From positions 1 to 40,567 of IMG/VR virus record IMGVR_UViG_3300033551_000014: 40,567 nt of DNA, one strand, 5' to 3'. Made by a program: the position numbers and the translations under genes. Below the pieces are notes generated by a model, which saw nothing but the letters and a program-made list of their open reading frames with translations, had not been told where the DNA came from and did not search any database. The number at the start of each line of letters is the position of its first letter. Within the stretch, counting starts at the first letter, position 1. Source of the DNA: a virus. Below, piece by piece: positions 172-37,051 of the stretch.

Positions 172-371
172 CCGTTCCGAAATGTACTAGCTGGCTTGGT
201 CACAAGTTTGAGGGCCGATATTCATACACCAATCCAGTCATGATGAAGTTCATGGAGCGCGTCACCAAGATTGACCGTCTTCCAACGGATTTCATGGAAG
301 CGTCTAGAGATTGCTCGTACGAACGAGACATTTGCGTTCGGTGCGGTCATGTCATTGAGCGGAAGCCATGA
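168..371 (+). CDS. Small hypothetical protein with Cys pairs
   Basis: This 67-residue protein is unrecognised. It begins in an ATGA overlap with the preceding gene and ends in an ATGA overlap with ninB. A C-terminal CVRC pair plus an N-terminal Cys and His could bind a metal ion, as in small zinc-ribbon-like phage proteins. That is inference only. Its position between recombination genes suggests a DNA-metabolism accessory role. Confidence 0.7.
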   Translation: MTVPKCTSWLGHKFEGRYSYTNPVMMKFMERVTKIDRLPTDFMEASRDCSYERDICVRCGHVIERKP

Positions 372-763
372 CGAGCTTTCACCTAGTCAACGAAACGGTA
401 CGCCGTAACTGTATCTCCGCGATACTCAATGCGCCTGCAAATTGGGTTGTGTCGATAAAGGAGCCGACGCGCTCAGCAGACGCCAATTCAAAGATGTGGG
501 CTATGCTCAGCGATGTGTCTAAAGCCCGTCCTGAAGGTCGCCAGTGGACGCCAGAGGTATGGAAATGTGCCTTCATGCACAGCCTTGGGCATCAGGTGGC
601 ATTCGCAGAGGGCCTAGACGGTTCGGGTCCGTTCCCGATTGGCTTTCGATCATCGAAGCTATCGGTTCGTCAAATGAGCGACCTGATTGAGGTTATCACG
701 GAATATGGGACACGCAACGGGGTTGTGTTTTCCGACACTCGGAACGGAGGATGGATGGAATGA
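368..763 (+). CDS. ninB: NinB family recombination protein
   Basis: This 131-residue protein matches the lambda NinB (Orf) family in length and pattern: a conserved WVVSIKEPTRS block near residues 27-37, the NSKMWAMLSDVS block near 40-51, then a W-KC-FMHSLG segment and the RSSKLSVRQMSDLIE helix. Lambda NinB/Orf is a recombination mediator that binds single-stranded DNA and helps load recombinases at gaps. The gene is coupled at both ends (ATGA at 368 and 760) and lies beside a YbcO-like nuclease, a typical nin-region arrangement. Confidence 0.9.
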   Translation: MTSFHLVNETVRRNCISAILNAPANWVVSIKEPTRSADANSKMWAMLSDVSKARPEGRQWTPEVWKCAFMHSLGHQVAFAEGLDGSGPFPIGFRSSKLSVRQMSDLIEVITEYGTRNGVVFSDTRNGGWME

Positions 764-999
764 AGATCGAATACGGAAATGGCACAACCGAGTACGGGCC
801 GGGGGTTCTCATCTCTTTGACCGGCAATGAGGTGGCAATTGCAATCACGGCTTGGCTTCATGCGCACAGCGTGCATATCGACGGCTCTAAAACCGTGCGT
901 GTCAATGGCGCTCTTTGCTCCGGTGGCGATGTTTACGTTGATCCTTCCTCAAGGGTGGTTGCAAAAGGAAAGGAATATTCCGGGCGCGGCCCCAAGTGA
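760..999 (+). CDS. Hypothetical protein in nin-like region
   Basis: This 79-residue protein has no recognised family. I use the ATG at 760, which overlaps the ninB stop and has GGAGG at 746-750, rather than the ATG at 751, which abuts the ribosome site. Short beta-strand-like segments (VRVNGALCSGGDVYVD) suggest a small beta-rich fold. The stop overlaps the GTG start of the next gene. Confidence 0.7.
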   Translation: MKIEYGNGTTEYGPGVLISLTGNEVAIAITAWLHAHSVHIDGSKTVRVNGALCSGGDVYVDPSSRVVAKGKEYSGRGPK

Positions 1000-1412
1000 T
1001 CCGGTCTCGTAAGTACCTTGATGGCAGTAGAGGGGCAACGTGCAAGTTCCGCATTCCCGGCCATTGCGTTGGCGGCACTGAAACAACCGTTGCCTGTCAC
1101 ATCAAGGATGGATCAAACGGCATGGGGATGAAGGCTAGTGACCTGTCGGTCGTGGATGGGTGCCGAGGGTGCCATTTTTGCATGGACCAGAACATGCTCA
1201 GCAAAGAGGAATGGCTGTTCTACGCATTGCGGGGCCTACAGGAGACGTTAGAGGCCCGTTTCGCCCTTGGCCTGCTCATAGTGCCAGTTGATGCAGAAAC
1301 CCTGTCCAGCGAGCGCCCTGTGAAGCCACGTAAGCCTAAATCAGAGCGGAAGGCCATCAACTCAAAGCCCTTCCCCAAACAGTCCAGAGGATGGAGGAAG
1401 AGAGAGGAATGA
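996..1412 (+). CDS. YbcO-like (DUF1364) nuclease
   Basis: This 138-residue protein starts with GTG in a GTGA overlap. The N-terminal half shows the DUF1364/YbcO pattern: CKFRIPGHCVGG with paired cysteines, then ETTVACHIKDGSNGMGMKASD, then a DGCRGCH motif with Cys/Cys/His ligands. The family is an HNH/beta-beta-alpha-metal type nuclease found in lambdoid nin regions, probably acting on recombination intermediates. The Lys/Arg-rich C-terminal tail (about residues 107-138) could bind DNA. Neighbouring ninB supports a recombination role. Confidence 0.82.
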   Translation: MIRSRKYLDGSRGATCKFRIPGHCVGGTETTVACHIKDGSNGMGMKASDLSVVDGCRGCHFCMDQNMLSKEEWLFYALRGLQETLEARFALGLLIVPVDAETLSSERPVKPRKPKSERKAINSKPFPKQSRGWRKREE

Positions 1413-1615
1413 TGGACGACAACAACGTAATTCCAATGCCACTGCCTTCGCTTCGAAACATGAGCACGGAACAGCTTAAGCGGTTTGTAGGCAGTAACCC
1501 TCGTAAATGGGCGAAAGCCTTTCTGGAAATTTATGAAGCTGATGAGGATGCTGTGATGAATGAGGATTGGGTAACGGCATGGTTCACGGCGGCTATGGAG
1601 GCAGCAAAGGAATGA
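1409..1615 (+). CDS. Small hypothetical protein
   Basis: This 68-residue protein is unrecognised. The start at 1409 has a strong purine-rich ribosome site (GAGAGGA) and an ATGA overlap with the upstream gene. The C-terminal half is acidic and helical. It is coupled by ATGA to the gcrA homologue downstream, so the two proteins are probably made together. Confidence 0.7.
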   Translation: MMDDNNVIPMPLPSLRNMSTEQLKRFVGSNPRKWAKAFLEIYEADEDAVMNEDWVTAWFTAAMEAAKE

Positions 1616-2184
1616 ACCCTAAGATCGTAGACTGGGAATCTCCGGGGCGCATCGACAAGCTGAAGGAAATGTGGGCCATTGGATACTCGGCCCTGCAAAT
1701 AGCGGACGCACTCGGAATACCAGGGAAGAAGAACGCAGTCATTGGAAAGGCCAATCGTCTCAATCTCGGCGCTCATCCGAATGGACATGCTTACTACAGA
1801 GCTACCGAAAGGGCTCGCAGACTAAAGGAACGCACTGAAAGCAAAGCCAAGAGGCATAGGGAAATGGATGGGTCACTCAGCCGCTCTAAATCATCTGGAC
1901 CAGTTCGTAAGCGTAAGCCTCCAAAGCCTGATGTTGTGATTGAGAAGGTAGTGGAGCGCAGGGCGTCGATTGATGGCCCTAGCATGAAGCCAGATTATCG
2001 GTTCCAGCGCTCTAAGGCATGGGAGGCTTTGGAGGGTAGCAATCCGGTGCCGCTAGAGAAGTTGGGACGTGGGGAATGCAAATGGCCCCTGAATGGACCT
2101 AACGATACGCATCTGTTCTGCGCTCTGCCAGCATCAGATCGGTACTGTTCAACACACACATATCTATCGCATCCGAAAACGTGA
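1612..2184 (+). CDS. gcrA: GcrA-family cell-cycle transcription regulator
   Basis: This 190-residue protein carries both ends of the GcrA family. The N-terminal helix-turn-helix-like block (about residues 14-51) contains KLKEMWAIGYSALQIADALG and NAVIGKANRL, matching the family pattern of LW--G-SA-QIA--LG and NAVIGK-HRL. The C-terminal block (about 152-190) has the Cys-Trp-Pro, Phe-Cys and Tyr-Cys-His residues of the sigma70-contacting region. The middle is Lys/Arg-rich and poorly conserved. GcrA in Alphaproteobacteria binds RNA polymerase sigma70 and acts at GANTC sites methylated by CcrM. I place the start at 1612 (ATGA overlap, AAAGGA site). A phage copy could redirect host transcription or drive later phage promoters. 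No CcrM-type methyltransferase was seen in the window. Confidence 0.9.
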   Translation: MNPKIVDWESPGRIDKLKEMWAIGYSALQIADALGIPGKKNAVIGKANRLNLGAHPNGHAYYRATERARRLKERTESKAKRHREMDGSLSRSKSSGPVRKRKPPKPDVVIEKVVERRASIDGPSMKPDYRFQRSKAWEALEGSNPVPLEKLGRGECKWPLNGPNDTHLFCALPASDRYCSTHTYLSHPKT

Positions 2185-2742: not shown

Positions 2743-2752
2743 GAATGAAGGA

Positions 2753-2779
2753 GCCCCGGCGCATTTAAGCAACCGGGGC
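2753..2779 (+). terminator. GC-rich hairpin, terminator-like
   Basis: GCCCCGG at 2753-2759 pairs with CCGGGGC at 2773-2779 around a 13-base AT-rich loop containing TTTAA. The downstream run (TTGCAATTT) is only weakly U-rich, so termination may be partial. The same seven-base stem with a TTTAA-containing loop recurs at 35258-35287, in front of the other large structured region. Confidence 0.6.
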
Positions 2780-2784
2780 TTGCA

Positions 2785-3280
2785 ATTTCTACGTGACGGC
2801 GTAGAGTGGAATTCAGTTGAGCGGTTTCTCAGGCCCTCAACCATGACCAAAGCGGGATGAACGCGTTTGGTAAGACTTGAATGCCACACATGGCCCATAA
2901 GTTCAAGCGCTTACCCCACAAAGTTATCCGCCAAGGTTCGTAGAGACAGGGTAAATCCCCTGTGACGGACAGCATGGCGCTGTTCTGTTTGATGGTAGTG
3001 CCCACTGGGTCACTCTACGTCTGCCGCGCAACCAGGGGGAACTGACAAGGCGCAAACCCAGTCCGTAGGGGAGAGGGGTGTCAGCAAGGGGATCGTCCCT
3101 TGGAAGCAACTCCCTAGCGCCAAGGCATGATCGCCGGAAGCGTGATCGTAAGCTCCGAACTCCGTCTCAAGGGACAGAAAAGGACCCGATCTGGACTGCT
3201 CCTTGTGCTTTCGGGCATGGGGAAGACAGTCCTTGATCACCAGCAACCGACCCCGAACTCAGGGACAGTTAAGGTAGAAA
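2785..3280 (+). ncRNA. Large structured noncoding RNA candidate A
   Basis: No convincing gene covers this roughly 500-base stretch of an otherwise overlapping operon. Reading the + strand I find many stems: GTTGAG 2816-2821 with CTCAAC 2836-2841; ACCAAA 2846-2851 with TTTGGT 2866-2871; CTTGAA 2876-2881 with TTCAAG 2902-2907, enclosing GCCA/TGGC; CGTAGAG 2939-2945 with CTCTACG 3013-3019, closing a multibranch that holds ACAGGG/CCCTGT (2946/2958) and ACAGC/GCTGT (2969/2979); GGCGC 3049-3053 with GCGCC 3117-3121, enclosing TAGGG/CCCTA (3066/3112) and CAAGGG/CCCTTG (3085/3097); GATCGC 3129 with a partner at 3142-3147; CCCGA 3185 with TCGGG 3211. I cannot assign it to a known family. It resembles in size and ornateness the large phage RNAs GOLLD and ROOL, but that is only analogy. 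Confidence 0.65.
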
Positions 3281-3289
3281 GAGAAGAAG

Positions 3290-4505: not shown

Positions 4506-4720
4506 GGGAAAGCAAGAAAGACCGAAAGGCTATAGCAAAGACAGTACGAGAGATACAGATCAGGTTAGTTGGATATCCGTCACGACAGGAATCTTATGGA
4601 GACGGATCGACGTGGACCGACATTGTGGAGGTTCCGTTAACTGACATGGAAACGATCTATTGGCTTCTGTGCAGGCTAGAACAAGAAATGGACGGGATAT
4701 CTCCGGAAGATTTGAAATGA
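4502..4720 (+). CDS. Small hypothetical protein
   Basis: This 72-residue protein has a basic N-terminus (RESKKDRKAIAK) and an acidic helical C-terminus. It is coupled on both sides by ATGA overlaps. No family recognised. Confidence 0.65.
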   Translation: MRESKKDRKAIAKTVREIQIRLVGYPSRQESYGDGSTWTDIVEVPLTDMETIYWLLCRLEQEMDGISPEDLK

Positions 4721-4851
4721 GCGAGCTTGTAAATTCCGTCCTGAACGCATGGCTTGGTCAGCAGCCTGAGCCAATCGACTGGGAAGCAAAGTCGCGGGCT
4801 GACGAACAGCGTATTAAGCGAATCCTGGAAGAAGCGGCGAAGAAGAAGTGA
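4717..4851 (+). CDS. Small hypothetical protein (44 aa)
   Basis: This 44-residue protein starts in an ATGA overlap at 4717. It is helical and charged, ending in EEAAKKK. Its stop forms a GTGA overlap with the membrane peptide that follows. Unrecognised. Confidence 0.6.
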   Translation: MSELVNSVLNAWLGQQPEPIDWEAKSRADEQRIKRILEEAAKKK

Positions 4852-4949
4852 GCCGTCTAACCTTCCGCCCACCACTAAAAGGCCTATCCCTTCTCTTCCT
4901 CATCTCCTTAGCTTTGATAGGGGTAGGGAAGTGGATGGGGAGTATCTAG
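4848..4949 (+). CDS. One-helix membrane peptide (33 aa)
   Basis: A 33-codon GTG-start frame encodes a basic head followed by a single hydrophobic helix (LSLLFLISLALIGVG) and a short polar tail. It is coupled to the upstream gene by GTGA. It belongs to a set of very small membrane peptides seen throughout this genome. Role unknown. Confidence 0.55.
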   Translation: MSRLTFRPPLKGLSLLFLISLALIGVGKWMGSI

Positions 4950-4959
4950 GAGGAATGAG

Positions 4960-5265
4960 ATGAGACGAGACGATGAAAAGACATGCGAGAACTGCATGTG
5001 GTCCAGCGGCTTCAGTCAGATTTGGGGCCATTGCAGAAACCCACGTAATTCGCAATCTGGAAGCGCTGGCTCGGATTACAGCCGTGCTGACGTTATCGTT
5101 CCCATGAGCATTCGCATCAACCAAGTCTGTGACCTTCACGAAGAGAAGGGTGTAGGGTCGAACCTACGAGATGCTTTCAAGATGGAAAGCTATCAGGTTT
5201 CAGAAGGCTCTACCGGTTTTATGGGCTACACTGCCTATAGCACTAAATGGCGCCGATCCGAATAG
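4960..5265 (+). CDS. Hypothetical protein with Cys motif
   Basis: This 101-residue protein starts behind TAGGAGGAATGAG. A CENC pair at residues 9-12, a CRNP near 26 and a later Cys (near residue 59) beside His suggest a bound metal. It is the last gene of the rightward arm and ends just before the convergent boundary with the leftward lysis genes. Confidence 0.7.
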   Translation: MRRDDEKTCENCMWSSGFSQIWGHCRNPRNSQSGSAGSDYSRADVIVPMSIRINQVCDLHEEKGVGSNLRDAFKMESYQVSEGSTGFMGYTAYSTKWRRSE

Positions 5266-7256: not shown

Positions 7257-8639
7257 CTAGTAGCCATAGAACATTTCCGTCATGCCTGAGATATTGTTGA
7301 TCTTGCCAACTCTCAGATTTGCGTTAATGGCCGTATCATTCACATAGACGATAGGCGGCTTTACCGTTCTGGTATCCTCAACGGTGAGCGTTCCGATATT
7401 CACGCAACTCTTGATCCCTGCCTTGCCAACCAAGGAAACCACGCTGCTATCGCCGCTGTTGAACGTGTGAGCATGTCCAATCCGAACAATGGACGCCACG
7501 CCCTGGTTCGCAACAGCGCTGTCATTGACAACGATCGGTGCGGAAGGAGAGCGGGCCTGTAGATGATCAATATCCAGATCGCCGCCAAGAACCTGCACAG
7601 CATAATGGCCAACGTTCTCTATGCTGAGATTACCGAACCGCGCAGATGGCTTATTGGGGCTTGTACCCTTCAGTCTGAGCAGACCGCTGCCCAGAACATT
7701 GCCGCTAAGGGTCGCTTCTGAAACAACGAGCTTTGCACCATGTCCCGGCGATATGGGCTTATTCAACCCTCGGACATTCATCGACCCTATAGAAATCATG
7801 CCGCCATTATGAATCCACGGCTCCACTGTTCCGTTAGCGACGAAATCGAGATTGAGGCTTCCGACATGCAGTTTAAAGTCATCGGAATCGACTGCCTTGA
7901 TAGATGACCCAGCATCAAGCCCCGACCCCTTCATGGATAGATAGCCGATGTTTGCTGTGAACCGACGCGATCCGGTATAATCATCGGGCTCGATATCGAG
8001 GCAATGGCGGTCTGTATCGTCGGGAGTTCCACCAAACAGGGACGCGCCGCCCTGCGTGTTATCCAGAGTTGCCGTACCGATATGCACCCTATCAGCATAG
8101 TGCCAGACAAGGTTCTTTCGCCCCGCCGTATGTGCCTTCAGCCGATGAATGACGATATTGTCGGAGAACTGCGTTGTTTCATTATCCCCGCCGATAAAGA
8201 CGTTATCACCCCGCGCATTGAAGGCAATGAGTTCGTCAATTTCCAGCCCATGCACATTGAAGATGAAGGCGCAGTGCATATGCTCGTTATTGTTCGATGC
8301 GATTTCAGGTACTGAACCATCAAGGCTTAGATCGCCACGAATGCGGATATTTTCGGATAGGGAATATCCCTTGCCAATGGATAGGAGACGAGTCCAAGAA
8401 CTAGCGCCGGGAGCCAGCTTAAGCTTAGTGTTCTTGCAATGGATATCGACGTTGCTAGGAACAAGGAAAGCCCATGCATTCGAGCCATCCTGACAGACGT
8501 AAAGCGTCTCGCCCTCGCACTCCATGCTGACAGGCTTCCCTGTCTGCGCATAAGCCATAAGGTCTTTGAATGCCTGCACATTAGTAGCGGCGGCTGAAGG
8601 GTCGTTATAGATGGCGCCGTATTCAGTGATGTGCTTCAA
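7257..8639 (-). CDS. Tailspike, beta-helix type
   Basis: This 460-residue protein begins with the pectate-lyase-like capping region common in phage tailspikes (YGAIYNDPSAAATNVQAF), then a long series of short strands with many Asn, Gly and Ile-x-Ile patterns, as in a right-handed parallel beta-helix. Its place directly after the tail-fibre gene suggests it is the receptor-binding or polysaccharide-degrading tip. The catalytic residues cannot be assigned by eye. Confidence 0.72.
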   Translation of the reverse strand: MKHITEYGAIYNDPSAAATNVQAFKDLMAYAQTGKPVSMECEGETLYVCQDGSNAWAFLVPSNVDIHCKNTKLKLAPGASSWTRLLSIGKGYSLSENIRIRGDLSLDGSVPEIASNNNEHMHCAFIFNVHGLEIDELIAFNARGDNVFIGGDNETTQFSDNIVIHRLKAHTAGRKNLVWHYADRVHIGTATLDNTQGGASLFGGTPDDTDRHCLDIEPDDYTGSRRFTANIGYLSMKGSGLDAGSSIKAVDSDDFKLHVGSLNLDFVANGTVEPWIHNGGMISIGSMNVRGLNKPISPGHGAKLVVSEATLSGNVLGSGLLRLKGTSPNKPSARFGNLSIENVGHYAVQVLGGDLDIDHLQARSPSAPIVVNDSAVANQGVASIVRIGHAHTFNSGDSSVVSLVGKAGIKSCVNIGTLTVEDTRTVKPPIVYVNDTAINANLRVGKINNISGMTEMFYGY

Positions 8640-10043
8640 TTACAACCTCGCATTAGCCACATAAGCGGAGATGGCTGCAACGTCATTAAGTGACGAAGAC
8701 GCCGTGATTGTAACAGACTTTCGCGATGCATTGCTGGCCTGTGGACCAACAGCAGCCGCGCTAGCGGTGAGCGTCATGGTTGGTGTCTTCGCCATTTCCA
8801 GCCCAAAGTCCGCCCATACCGTCGATGGCCTGCCCGCCGCCGTTGCGGCGCCAACGCGCTGGGTAAACGTATCTGTTTTGTAGTACCTTTCGGGACGGAA
8901 CACCGCGTTAACGTCACCCACCTCATACGGGCCGTACGATCCGGTCGCATTGGGATCGGCCTTAAAGCCCTCGTCAAAGAACTCAAAGACCGCTCCGCCT
9001 GTCGCCATGCCATTCGAGACAGCAGACGTACCCAAGATATTTCCCGCCTGCCATCCGGTTGTGCCCTGAAAGGTGCTACCGGCGGCTAGGGTTATGACTC
9101 GAACAATACCGACAGTTCCGTCTGTCGCGAGCCATGTTCCCGTGGTGTCTCCAGGAATAGCGAACTCACGAACTACGTCTGTATTTGCCTCGCCAGCGGA
9201 GATTGTGAAAAGGGCGACATAGGATCGCGTGGCCCCAGAGTTTCCGAGCCGATAGGCATAGGTTCCGGCAGGGCCTTTGAACCCTAGTCGCGCCACAACG
9301 GCCACTGCACTAGAGGTTCCCCACTTAAGGTCTCGTACATTCGAGCCTTCGAGGGTTTCTGCATAATTGAGATACTCCCCGGCTGCCAGGGAAGCGTCAG
9401 CTACCGTAATTGTGATCCGGTCACGGTAGCCACCAGCAGGGCTCAATGTCTGAACATTGACGCCTGTAATCGTGCCTGCTGACGTGACAAAGCTCATGAA
9501 GTTCTGGTCGGACAGATAGCGCCCGTTTGTCGTCCCGGAGGTCTGCCCATTCTCTTGGCTAACAAGCTTGTCACCGTTGACGGAGCGATTCCGTAGATAG
9601 TTCGGAGAAACTACCGGCTGGCCGCTGGCCCTGTAATAGAAAAGGCATCTCCAGTTTCCAGAACCTTCCGACACGAAGGCGGCAACATCTCCTGCCGCAG
9701 TTGTGATACTTGCGGCGTTGGGGAGAATAAGGGAGGTCGCGTTATAGGTGAGTGTCAAAGCGCCAGAAAAGCGCAAATACCTGATCGTACCGGCACGAAC
9801 CGTTCCGAAGCTGGTAATGGTGGTCGTTCCGGATACCGTAAGATACGCTTCAGATTGAGCGCCAATGTCGGTTGTCGTAGCGGATGCAATCGTGTCACTG
9901 GAAGTCCACCGGCCAATCATGCCAAGCGTGGCTTGAATGACATTATCCATCGTGGACATGTTTGCAATCGTGCCCTCAGTCGAAAACCCGCTGATGCTCG
10001 TATTGCTGGAATCGGTGGGAGATAGATCGGCTATTTCAGTCAT
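8640..10043 (-). CDS. Tail fibre / tailspike-associated protein
   Basis: This 467-residue protein is Thr/Ser/Gly/Ala-rich with repeated short beta strands. The N-terminal 140 residues (ending near FVSEGSGNWRCLFYYRASG) resemble a module found at the start or middle of many phage fibre proteins. I start at ATG 10043; an in-frame TTG lies two codons upstream. It lies between the SleB hydrolase and the tailspike genes, so it is probably a fibre or adaptor at the tail tip. Confidence 0.7.
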   Translation of the reverse strand: MTEIADLSPTDSSNTSISGFSTEGTIANMSTMDNVIQATLGMIGRWTSSDTIASATTTDIGAQSEAYLTVSGTTTITSFGTVRAGTIRYLRFSGALTLTYNATSLILPNAASITTAAGDVAAFVSEGSGNWRCLFYYRASGQPVVSPNYLRNRSVNGDKLVSQENGQTSGTTNGRYLSDQNFMSFVTSAGTITGVNVQTLSPAGGYRDRITITVADASLAAGEYLNYAETLEGSNVRDLKWGTSSAVAVVARLGFKGPAGTYAYRLGNSGATRSYVALFTISAGEANTDVVREFAIPGDTTGTWLATDGTVGIVRVITLAAGSTFQGTTGWQAGNILGTSAVSNGMATGGAVFEFFDEGFKADPNATGSYGPYEVGDVNAVFRPERYYKTDTFTQRVGAATAAGRPSTVWADFGLEMAKTPTMTLTASAAAVGPQASNASRKSVTITASSSLNDVAAISAYVANARL

Positions 10044-22699: not shown

Positions 22700-24790
22700 T
22701 TAGGTTGTTGCGTTGGTATCGAACCCGTTCATTGCTGGACGGCGTGATGCGGCGTTGAGAAGGGCGATTCGTTCGCGGCTATCAATCTCAGCCTGAGCGA
22801 TGCGCTCCTTCATGGCGATTTCCTGCATGGCCTTTTCTTCATCGGCTGCGAGTTTCGCGGCGGTTATGGCCTTGTCCGCTTCGATGCGCGCCATATCGAT
22901 AGCTGCACCCTGCTTAAGCTGCTCGTTCTCGGCAGACAGTTCCGCGATCTTGGCTTTGCCCGCCTCAAGCAACTGCTGGACCTGCGGGGGAATACCCTGC
23001 TCGCCCATAGCCTGCGGAGGGATCATGCGTTTGATGCGCTCGGCAATCTCATCAGCGCCCTGCCAATCAAGCGACTTCACCAGGATATCACCCACGAGCG
23101 GAGCCGCTGCTGGATAGGCCTGAATAAGCTGCATCATCTGATCAGCGGTTTCCTGCCGCTGTGTCGTATAGCTCGGGCCAGTCGAAACCGTAAGATCATA
23201 CTTGCCAGCCGTAAGATCATGCAGAGCAATCACTGCTTGGCCGAACTCATCAACCTTGGGCTTTCCCTGCTCATCCATGACTTGGGTAGGCTGATTGACC
23301 TTGACGGTTTCTTGCGACCCATCATCTCCGATTACGCGAACAATGCGGGGAGCGTCGTATACGTGCGGAATGAGGTCAATAATGATCCGGCCCGTATGAC
23401 GAATAGCTCGGGAAAGGTTGTCGATGAAATGGAAGGTGGAAACGTCACCCTCACGCTGGCGAGCCATGATAGCCCGACCACTCGTTTCGTTCGATCTGGC
23501 GCCCAAGGAGGCGTCATAGATGCCGGTAATAGACTTGATATCGTCCGAGGCGTTAAGGGCCTCCTGAAGCGCCCCAGCAGCTGCACCACCATCGAGAGGC
23601 TGACGCATTGGAGGCTGCTTGCCCTGCGTATATTCAAGGAACGGGTGCGACTTGGTATTCGCGGTCTGCCAGCGCTCTTGGTCAACGTCAAAAGCACCTT
23701 CTTCACCGATATATGGAACACGAGGTGCAAGGGCGACCAGTTCGGTTCCCGAGGTGCGCCAGAAGTTAAGCATCTGCTGCGCGTCTTTGGCGCCATTGAT
23801 CAGGCTACGAAGGAAGCGCTTGCCATCGATCCAGAACTCATCCCCATAAACAGGGATAACCGGAATGTACTTACCGGGCCATTCGCGCTCCGACAGGACT
23901 TCCGCCCCCGTCATGATGCGTTGCATAACCTTGTGGCACTTGACGACGCGCCGAATGGGCTGCCCGAGTTGATCAACGTCAAGCGTAATCAGTCCTGCTT
24001 CCAAGGCCAGCGCAAGGTCGGGGTCTTCGGTCAAATCCTTCTCGTTGAAGGTGCGGCCATCGGCGCTTTTGACTAGCGTCTTTTCCGATGGTTCGCGCGT
24101 CCACCACTCAGCAACAAGAACACCATCCTCATTGAGCCAGTCACCGGTGATTTCCGTCCACGCATCGCTGTCCCAATCGGTCACAACCGCATCTGGGTAC
24201 TGGCGCTTGAACTCTTCTCTCGACAGCCGATCCACGACAAAGGCGTCATTCCAATCCGAGCTATCAGCAGCGGTAGAATTGGGATCACCATACACGCTGA
24301 GAGGATTAGCTACGCGGTTGATCGTGATATCGAGATCAAAGCTATCGTCATAGGCATAGTCGATGCCAACGCGGATATAGCCAAACCCGCCACCAGTTGC
24401 GCACTCGACAGCCGTGTCATACGCAACGTCTGCGTTACTGGTGTACTCAATGTTCCTGATCAGGCCATTGATGATCTCTGCCGTCTCTGGATCGCCAAAG
24501 CTATCGACAGGGTGAACCTTGATGGATGGCTTGTTCTGACGCGCATCATTGACAACCTGACGCACAACTGGACCAAGCTTATCGATTGTCAGGCAAGGAC
24601 GACCTTCTAGCTCACGCTGCTTGCGGATATTCGCAGGCCACTGATCGCGAGCGCGGACAAACAGCGTATCTTCACGATAGGCCAGCCGGTTATCCTGCTC
24701 ATGCTCTTCGGCACGGTCGAAGCACTTGCGGGCGCGAGACAGAATATCGTCATCCCTACGTGGCTTTTCTTTTTTGGTTTCCTTAGCCAT
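22700..24790 (-). CDS. Portal protein, P22 type
   Basis: This 696-residue protein matches the long P22-type portal in size (725 in P22) and motifs: RARDQWP near 46-52, RPCLTIDKLGPVVRQVVND, ATGGGFGYIRVGIDY near 130-146, the GARSNETSGRAIMARQREGD block near 420, and a long C-terminal helical, coiled region (about 580-680) corresponding to the P22 portal barrel. It forms the dodecameric packaging and ejection channel. Confidence 0.92.
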   Translation of the reverse strand: MAKETKKEKPRRDDDILSRARKCFDRAEEHEQDNRLAYREDTLFVRARDQWPANIRKQRELEGRPCLTIDKLGPVVRQVVNDARQNKPSIKVHPVDSFGDPETAEIINGLIRNIEYTSNADVAYDTAVECATGGGFGYIRVGIDYAYDDSFDLDITINRVANPLSVYGDPNSTAADSSDWNDAFVVDRLSREEFKRQYPDAVVTDWDSDAWTEITGDWLNEDGVLVAEWWTREPSEKTLVKSADGRTFNEKDLTEDPDLALALEAGLITLDVDQLGQPIRRVVKCHKVMQRIMTGAEVLSEREWPGKYIPVIPVYGDEFWIDGKRFLRSLINGAKDAQQMLNFWRTSGTELVALAPRVPYIGEEGAFDVDQERWQTANTKSHPFLEYTQGKQPPMRQPLDGGAAAGALQEALNASDDIKSITGIYDASLGARSNETSGRAIMARQREGDVSTFHFIDNLSRAIRHTGRIIIDLIPHVYDAPRIVRVIGDDGSQETVKVNQPTQVMDEQGKPKVDEFGQAVIALHDLTAGKYDLTVSTGPSYTTQRQETADQMMQLIQAYPAAAPLVGDILVKSLDWQGADEIAERIKRMIPPQAMGEQGIPPQVQQLLEAGKAKIAELSAENEQLKQGAAIDMARIEADKAITAAKLAADEEKAMQEIAMKERIAQAEIDSRERIALLNAASRRPAMNGFDTNATT

Positions 24791-26807: not shown

Positions 26808-26891
26808 TTGAATCTCGTTGAAACTTTTTCATGGTTCAGACTGCCATTAGCTTGGTCATAACCAGTTAGTTATCACTGCTCACATTCAGGT
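26808..26891 (-). promoter_or_regulatory. Intergenic region with inverted repeat upstream of terS
   Basis: In this 84-base gap ATAAC and GTTAT form an inverted repeat around six bases (26859-26874 approximately). A leftward TTGAAC in the end of the upstream gene lies about 17 bases before a weak TAACTA. It is a possible promoter/operator for the packaging genes, but the matches are poor. Confidence 0.3.
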
Positions 26892-33578: not shown

Positions 33579-33867
33579 TATCGCTCTCCATCTGGGCTGC
33601 TAGGTTTCCGAATATCGATCCTACTGATGCAGGTGATAGTTTCCGTGTGTCCTGCAACTCATCCTCCCAACATCCAGCCCGTAGCCATGAGGCAGGGTGT
33701 TTGATGTATTGATGTTCAGTGTTTCTGGTGTGAATGGCATAGCGCTCAACGCCTGCCATTATCTCTTGGTGTGTGGCTGACTTCAGGGCCTTTTCGTAGG
33801 CCTTCTTGGCTTCTAACTTGGCCACCCGACGCGGATAGCATTGCCAGAACGTGTCGAAGCTCATCAT
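33496..33867 (-). CDS. Replication-protein-like C-terminal domain
   Basis: This 123-residue protein matches the C-terminal part of phage O-type replication proteins: FDTFWQCYPRRVAKLEAKKA near residues 4-23, EIMAGVERYAIHT, QYIKHPASWLRAGCWEDE near 53-70. The N-terminal DNA-binding domain of a full O protein is absent, so it is a short form. Such proteins recruit the host helicase at an origin. Two ATGs (33867, 33864) overlap the previous stop. Confidence 0.65.
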   Translation of the reverse strand: MMSFDTFWQCYPRRVAKLEAKKAYEKALKSATHQEIMAGVERYAIHTRNTEHQYIKHPASWLRAGCWEDELQDTRKLSPASVGSIFGNLAAQMESDNGVRRIQGDEGIREAFPLLSFAAEQSK

Positions 33868-34487
33868 GCAACCTCCTCATGGTTCGCCCATGGCTGGCGA
33901 ACGCTCTCTTTTGCCAAAGAGATCAGAACATCACGAAAGGCTGTCGGTGTGGCGTTCGCTTCCTTTTTAGTTAGTGTCGGCTTGTTCGCTGCTTTGCCCC
34001 TTTGGTCATGAAATCCAACCTGATGGCTACCCGCAACTCTGTCCCAACGTAGTTGCGCAGGTTGATCGTAACCTCGGAAATACAACCAAGTAGCCTTTCT
34101 AGCTCGATGGCCATAGGCGGATTGCCAGACTTCCGTTACCCATCCACTCCCGCTACTAATCCACCTTCCAAACTGAGGTCTATGTAAGCCGTGCGCGGCC
34201 CATGCTCTGGATTTAGCCGGATGCTCCAGAACTCCGCCGTATTCGTTTACACTTTTCAGCGCCGACGCAAATGTGCCGCTATCATTCCCCGGTTTATTGT
34301 GGTCGCCACCCCATCTCTTGTGGTTTACCGCTGCTAGGGCACCCCAAAGCTGGCAAGGAGGATGCGCAACAACTGGGTATGGGCCATCATACTCTCTGGC
34401 ATCTCTAGAAATAGGCCAAGGGTCCACTTCTTGAAGTCCGAAGTAGCAACCACCTTCCTGCACAAACAAAGCAGCAACTCTGTACAA
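33864..34487 (-). CDS. Cytosine-methyltransferase-like protein with PC motif
   Basis: This 207-residue protein contains PVVAHPPCQLWGALA near residues 38-52, resembling the catalytic Pro-Cys of DNA cytosine C5 methyltransferases, followed by GGVLEHPAKSRAW near 82-94 (compare the ENV-type motif position) and YGHRARKATWLYFRG near 123-137. It lacks the full set of C5 methylase motifs and a clear SAM loop, so it is a minimal or divergent relative known from many alphaproteobacterial phages. It starts with TTG behind AGGAGAG, just after structured RNA candidate B. It could modify phage DNA against restriction. Confidence 0.65.
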   Translation of the reverse strand: MYRVAALFVQEGGCYFGLQEVDPWPISRDAREYDGPYPVVAHPPCQLWGALAAVNHKRWGGDHNKPGNDSGTFASALKSVNEYGGVLEHPAKSRAWAAHGLHRPQFGRWISSGSGWVTEVWQSAYGHRARKATWLYFRGYDQPAQLRWDRVAGSHQVGFHDQRGKAANKPTLTKKEANATPTAFRDVLISLAKESVRQPWANHEEVA

Positions 34488-36645: not shown

Positions 36646-36863
36646 GGGGTGTCCTCACCGAGTTGCGAATCTAGTGCCTCCTGTATTTTCTTGTACTGAT
36701 CTTCCCATGATTTTCCCTTGGTCATCCCTGCTTCGAAGCCCATCTCGTATGCCTGTTTCATCATCCACACACGCTTGACCTTCATCTCCTCAATTGCGAA
36801 CTCACGCCCGGCTCGATATCCAACCTCATGACCTGCCATGAACATGTCTTGGTCTTTGCTCAT
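36642..36863 (-). CDS. Small hypothetical protein
   Basis: This 73-residue helical protein (AGHEVGYRAGREFAIEEMKV) is coupled on both sides by ATGA. The G-E-GYRAGREFA pattern is common in small phage proteins. Function unknown. Confidence 0.62.
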   Translation of the reverse strand: MSKDQDMFMAGHEVGYRAGREFAIEEMKVKRVWMMKQAYEMGFEAGMTKGKSWEDQYKKIQEALDSQLGEDTP

Positions 36864-37051
36864 TCCTTAGGTTCCTTGTTGCGACGATAGGTGACGACTC
36901 GCTCAAGCCCCAATGCGTCTAGGATGGCCTTTCCTGGCTCTCTGCGGCCATTGATAACGTCACTGACGTAGGCTGCGGCAATCCCGTGTTTCTTAGCCCA
37001 CGCTGACTGCGTAGGCTTTGCTTGGGATGCAAGATGCTTGCGAACGTCCAT
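36860..37051 (-). CDS. Cro/XRE-like transcription regulator
   Basis: This 63-residue protein has a helix-turn-helix of the Cro/XRE type: TQSAWAKKHGIAAAYVSDVI then NGRREPGKAILDALGLE. The size suits a lone Cro-type repressor. It is the second gene of the leftward arm, 250 bases from the divergent promoters, so it probably represses or balances early transcription. No partner CI-like repressor is visible. Confidence 0.78.
   Translation of the reverse strand: MDVRKHLASQAKPTQSAWAKKHGIAAAYVSDVINGRREPGKAILDALGLERVVTYRRNKEPKE

Follow-up and report, generated by a model that had tools for sequence, protein, structure and literature searches.

Why would a phage carry a gene for GcrA, and would the protein act on phage promoters or on those of its host? 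The window (the whole virus record of 40,567 bases analysed here) holds such a gene, and the original prediction was that its product could bring host RNA polymerase to phage promoters at GANTC sites methylated by CcrM, or else block host GcrA. For the mechanism of GcrA we relied on PMC7403470 and PMC3667746.

Sequence and predicted structure of the phage GcrA

In line with the prediction that both conserved ends of GcrA are present, the Pfam family GcrA (PF07750) matched residues 12–186 of the product with 61.8 bits (gathering score 26.9), and both ends matched solved GcrA chains (7ye1, 5yiu, 5yix), the closest being Caulobacter GcrA (Table 1). A profile of 48 phage relatives led by the window protein retrieved 7ye1 at 4e-51, and all 48 proteins in it matched PF07750; the only PHROGs matched by the protein are both without a named function. 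The start of gcrA is supported by the sister phage IMGVR_UViG_3300028590_000062 (L002), since DNA homology between the two phages begins at 1595, 17 bases 5' of the ATG. The location in the early region also fits, as gcrA lies in a plus-strand block with NinB-like and YbcO-like genes. The small ORF inserted between the nuclease gene and gcrA had no match in a PHROGs search and is absent at that place in L002, and a 52-base stretch at the end of the nuclease gene is 98% common to the two phages.

An AlphaFold2 model built from a 48-sequence alignment (mean pLDDT 79.7) was confident for a three-helix HTH (residues 13–49) and a C-terminal domain (about 141–190), with a poorly defined stretch after helix 58–88. 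In Foldseek searches, the HTH aligned with 5yiv_A, the DNA-binding domain with methylated DNA, at a TM-score of 0.83 by target length (rmsd 1.2, 42 columns), and the C-terminal domain with 5yix_B, which pairs the sigma-interacting domain with domain 2 of sigma70, at 0.72 by target length. GcrA entries (5yiv, 5yix, 7ye1, 7ye2) were the top four of 39 PDB matches, with probabilities of 0.98–1.00 and the modest E-values (0.014–0.11) expected of small domains. Among the nine BFVD matches at E 0.001 or better, seven were named phage GcrA and two had no name. Judged by sequence and model, the ORF is a true phage-encoded GcrA with both domains, laid out as Caulobacter GcrA is: an N-terminal HTH, a long basic linker and a C-terminal domain predicted to bind sigma70.

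The host protein of Caulobacter crescentus (7ye1, 7ye2, 5yiv, 5yix) has the same two domains in the same order and belongs to the same Pfam family, and both of its folds appear in the model; identity in the Foldseek alignments was about 48% in the DNA-binding domain and about 28% in the sigma-binding domain. The window protein differs from it in a longer linker, in changed residues of the recognition region and in being phage-borne. Of the 47 positions that 18 or more of 20 Hyphomicrobiales GcrAs share, the window protein keeps 33, including W8, NAVIGK (41–46), R49, L50, L52, W158, P159 and Y178, as well as the C/C/C/H set of the C-terminal domain (C156, C170, C179, H182), which is the same in all 20 host proteins; the fold and the sigma-binding end thus look intact. 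The recognition region departs from that of all 20 host proteins: K40 stands in place of the host R, N48 in place of H and G38 in place of V. The turn is also one residue longer than in host GcrA. Given these changes, the DNA specificity, and with it the exact site that is read, may differ from the host's.

Table 1. Features of the gcrA locus and of the divergent region in the window.
Feature	Position	Strand	Evidence or remark
gcrA homologue, 190 aa	1612..2184	+	ORF; Pfam PF07750 1.3e-16; PHROGs 16311, 12262
DNA-binding domain, residues 8–52, three-helix HTH	1633..1767	+	model helices 13–23, 27–34, 40–49; Foldseek 5yiv_A
Linker, residues 53–142, first half K/R-rich	1768..2037	+	low to moderate model confidence except helix 58–88
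Predicted sigma70-interacting domain, residues 143–190, C156, C170, C179, H182	2038..2181	+	Foldseek 5yix_B
Small ORF overlapping gcrA start (ATGA)	1391..1615	+	ORF list; sister-phage alignment
YbcO-like nuclease, upstream, same block as gcrA	996..1412	+	Pfam PF07102 7.8e-12
NinB/Orf-like recombination mediator, upstream, same block as gcrA	368..763	+	phrog_72 1.5e-26
Divergent intergenic region between minus- and plus-strand gene blocks, without GANTC	37270..37358		gene calls; GANTC positions
Small HTH repressor-like protein near divergent region	36860..37051	-	phrog_1468 1.9e-07; Pfam HTH_3 under cut-off

Two other parts of the window stood out. Downstream of gcrA, about 547 bases (2743–3289) hold little convincing coding sequence and fold better than every one of 100 shuffles (z -2.9), with no Rfam match; L002 has a gap of similar length in roughly this position, whose sequence shows little resemblance and whose fold is unremarkable (z -1.1). 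On the minus strand, 33864–34487 encodes a strongly conserved phage protein of unassigned function (phrog_12600, 5.5e-63) with a PPC motif, which we take to recall cytosine methyltransferases.

Phage type and probable host

The genome is of the P22 type (P22 portal 4.4e-199, P22 coat 1.5e-53), and bases 1–25,000 of the window matched no phage record by megablast. The best terminase relatives among 24 loci in bacterial genomes (71–73%) were in Kaistia granuli, two Bosea and an Afipia MAG. PF07750 was found in four of the six genomes tried, the two without it being the Afipia MAG and Lysobacter; the strong matches were taken as chromosomal copies because their contigs differ in length from the prophage contigs. 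The predicted alphaproteobacterial host is borne out by these terminase relatives and by a GANTC depletion like that of Hyphomicrobiales DNA (see below), and the host is very probably an alphaproteobacterium of the Hyphomicrobiales, probably of a soil type.

Spread and origin of phage gcrA genes

A scan of viral contigs with a DNA pattern for NAVIGK..R.L..L returned at least 120 stretches, and a gcrA ORF was found with the GcrA profile in all 120 listed; conservation of NAVIGK..R.L..L is built into this set, since the stretches were picked with that pattern. Adding the window, L002 and five named-phage loci brought the viral ORFs to 127, of which 112 were nonredundant. Recurrent neighbours of phage gcrA were helicases, primosomal proteins, DnaB-like proteins, Erf and exonucleases. 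The idea of a late-gene regulator, suggested by the Q-like place of gcrA after NinB/YbcO, was dropped as a general rule, as gcrA in other phages mostly adjoins such replication and recombination genes and has no constant place before the terminase. The idea of phages that pair GcrA with a CcrM-like methylase was likewise set aside: 11 loci had a methyltransferase-family neighbour, of several types and none shown to be CcrM, and no such gene lies next to gcrA in the window. Methyltransferase-family genes directly adjoin gcrA at L095:6460–7464, L180:7463–8662 and L117:8584–9276. One phage locus (L162) has two gcrA-like ORFs (4682–5134 and 8452–8853), and phage record MW202785.1 holds an ORF (L069:5578–6240) that fits the full GcrA profile and is not annotated as GcrA.

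The window and sister proteins paired in a 122-protein tree, on a branch 1.2 changes per column long that lies away from the host proteins; support for the deep branches was weak. Among 297 genomes of Kaistia's order, 16 had a match at 1e-8, with identities of 29–41%, which argues against a recent capture of gcrA from any of the sampled hosts; recent capture is likewise not supported by the long branch, within the weakness of the deep tree. None of the nine other portal-relative records carried gcrA, several of them being fragments and one (L003) a piece of the same phage at 100% identity; the gene is thus accessory within its own phage group.

A break between the two halves of the gene in a sister phage

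Over codons 1–142, 18 of the differences between the window and L002 are synonymous and 2 non-synonymous (dN/dS about 0.03), a mark of strong purifying selection, and the two proteins are identical in this part except at two positions. Beyond codon 142, nucleotide identity drops abruptly to about half, and residues 143–190 are about 52% identical at the protein level; the gcrA flanks are unrelated on both sides apart from short patches. No match closer than the sister phage was found for the C-terminal half, the best other reaching 46%. In a second pair (L114/L165), identity fell in a similar way across the sigma-binding core; the codons at its end were nearly identical, and conserved codons flanked the drop on both sides. 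Four of six domain-swap pairs checked were dropped, L099/L152 for a contig end, L150/L086 for being cut at a contig end, and L154/L146 and L142/L116 for the lack of a sharp break. Recombination is clear in the window/L002 pair only, since the sigma-binding domain evolves faster than the DNA-binding domain among host GcrA pairs as well, and any adaptive meaning would be a guess. That phage GcrAs retain the DNA-reading half while exchanging the sigma70-binding half, cassette-like, to match the host sigma factor, a reading weakened by the same behaviour of the host pairs, we hold to be highly doubtful; if true, GcrA would work as an interchangeable adaptor that links one constant methylation reader to the differing polymerases of alphaproteobacterial hosts. 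In any case, the window and L002 are a naturally occurring pair, almost alike in their DNA-binding halves and different in their sigma-binding halves, which is useful for testing domain function.

GANTC content of phage and host DNA

The window has 40 GANTC sites against 160–183 expected, making GANTC the rarest of the 24 words with the same bases. The ratio of observed to expected sites was 0.22 in the window, 0.15–0.22 in five named Hyphomicrobiales prophage loci, 0.19–0.64 in five other alphaproteobacterial loci and 0.55–0.96 in ten gamma- and betaproteobacterial loci. Portal relatives without gcrA were depleted too, except L012, so that the depletion reflects the host and not gcrA; as chromosomal stretches of Kaistia and Bosea were likewise depleted (coding 0.19–0.27, noncoding 0.29–0.41), the scarcity in the phage may only mirror that of the host.

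The count of GANTC near promoters that the original prediction called for gave no sign that polymerase is steered to phage promoters through these sites. Only 4 of the 40 sites in the window are noncoding, at the same density as the coding ones (1.01 versus 0.98 per kb), and the divergent region contains none; over the 112 nonredundant gcrA phage loci, pooled GANTC relative to expectation was 0.32 in noncoding and 0.30 in coding DNA, with no noncoding enrichment. A site lay within 200 bp upstream of gcrA in 27 of 107 genes of these loci. The extended motif YGAKTCG, described together with GcrA/CcrM rewiring (PMC7987155), occurs once per strand in the window, at 22765 (+) and 36895 (-), and a GANTC at 26810 lies 3 bases upstream of the ORF that precedes the large terminase. 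In a positive control on host chromosomes, noncoding GANTC was slightly less depleted than coding GANTC, as were two of three control words, making the coding/noncoding contrast a weak instrument. Gene calls behind the GANTC and context counts in the window, the 112 loci, the neighbours and the host chromosomes were greedy ORF calls.

Possible roles of the phage GcrA

We consider the chances about even that the window GcrA brings the holoenzyme mostly to host promoters with CcrM-methylated GANTC and that the cell is thereby held replication-competent. The protein would be made early in infection and dock on domain 2 of host sigma70, and the sigma70 holoenzyme would then be brought to promoters with methylated GANTC, most of them belonging to replication and S-phase genes of the host and not to the phage; with host promoters as targets, infection would keep the cell in a replication-competent state. 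We infer host targets from the avoidance of GANTC by the phage and the published role of host GcrA, and since the phage has few GANTC sites and does not carry them at its promoters, host DNA would be the main pool of sites. By this analysis, action on methylated host promoters is more likely than activation of phage promoters through host-methylated GANTC, the main claim of the original prediction, which appears improbable to us. For the latter, a handful of functional sites would be enough for a regulator, and some GANTC do lie near starts, such as that at 26810 and the two YGAKTCG; however, these two are fewer than the estimated number with such flanks by chance among 40 GANTC, three quarters of the gcrA genes have no site close upstream, noncoding and coding densities are equal, and predicted GcrA sites in phage genomes show no positional asymmetry according to PMC9437464.

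Two further readings would part the phage protein from host GcrA. With its changed residues in and beside the recognition helix, its longer turn and a divergent early region without GANTC, the window GcrA could be a sigma70 cofactor that recognises an unmethylated site or one specific to the phage and works at phage promoters, but the NAVIGK..RL core and the HTH fold are kept and a candidate phage operator was not found, albeit without a systematic search, and we rate this as unlikely. It might also compete with host GcrA by occupying sigma70 or methylated sites and so block the host regulon. Divergence from host GcrA on a long branch would suit a competitor, as would the DNA-binding-domain-only forms of other phages, but both domains are intact in the window protein and an inhibitor would not need both; we therefore find this hard to credit, no less so than action through GANTC at phage promoters. 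The short forms (about 69–76 aa; L084, L074, L103, L089, L149, L178, L087, L129, L088 and L151) could only compete, because they consist of the DNA-binding domain, and are possible natural competitors of host GcrA.

Relation to known phage GcrAs

A phage-carried GcrA is not new, having been in print since 2012 with the phiCbK protein gp222, a PF07750 member proposed to upregulate host replication genes (PMC3556154); what the window adds is a well-formed GcrA in a new phage lineage. The GcrA of phiCbK-like phages is likewise phage-encoded and of PF07750, but these are Caulobacter siphophages of 205–280 kb, whereas the window is a P22-type phage with a far diverged protein. GcrA-like proteins have also been described in Agrobacterium phage Atu_ph08 (gp5, PMC6630229) and Brucella phage Y17 (ORF4/ORF5, PMC11836647), and phage GcrA further appears in work on cyanophage Pam5 (PMC9382816), phiLM21-like prophages (PMC12429752) and a coral-associated phage linked to Rhizobiales (PMC11309003). 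Rhizobium phage RHph_Y1_10 and Microcystis phage Mwe-JY13 carry GcrA in genomes of 41–43 kb with gcrA upstream of the terminase genes, as in the window. The GcrAs of Atu_ph08, Y17, RHph_Y1_10 and Mwe-JY13 have no close sequence relation to that of the window; the L002 protein matched those of RHph_Y1_10 and Mwe-JY13 only in the C-terminal part. The literature searched yielded no functional test of a phage GcrA.

A P22-type phage of Hyphomicrobiales thus joins the carriers of GcrA, and such carriers are common, with at least 120 viral stretches. The evidence argues against the easy model in which a phage GcrA reads methylation on phage promoters.
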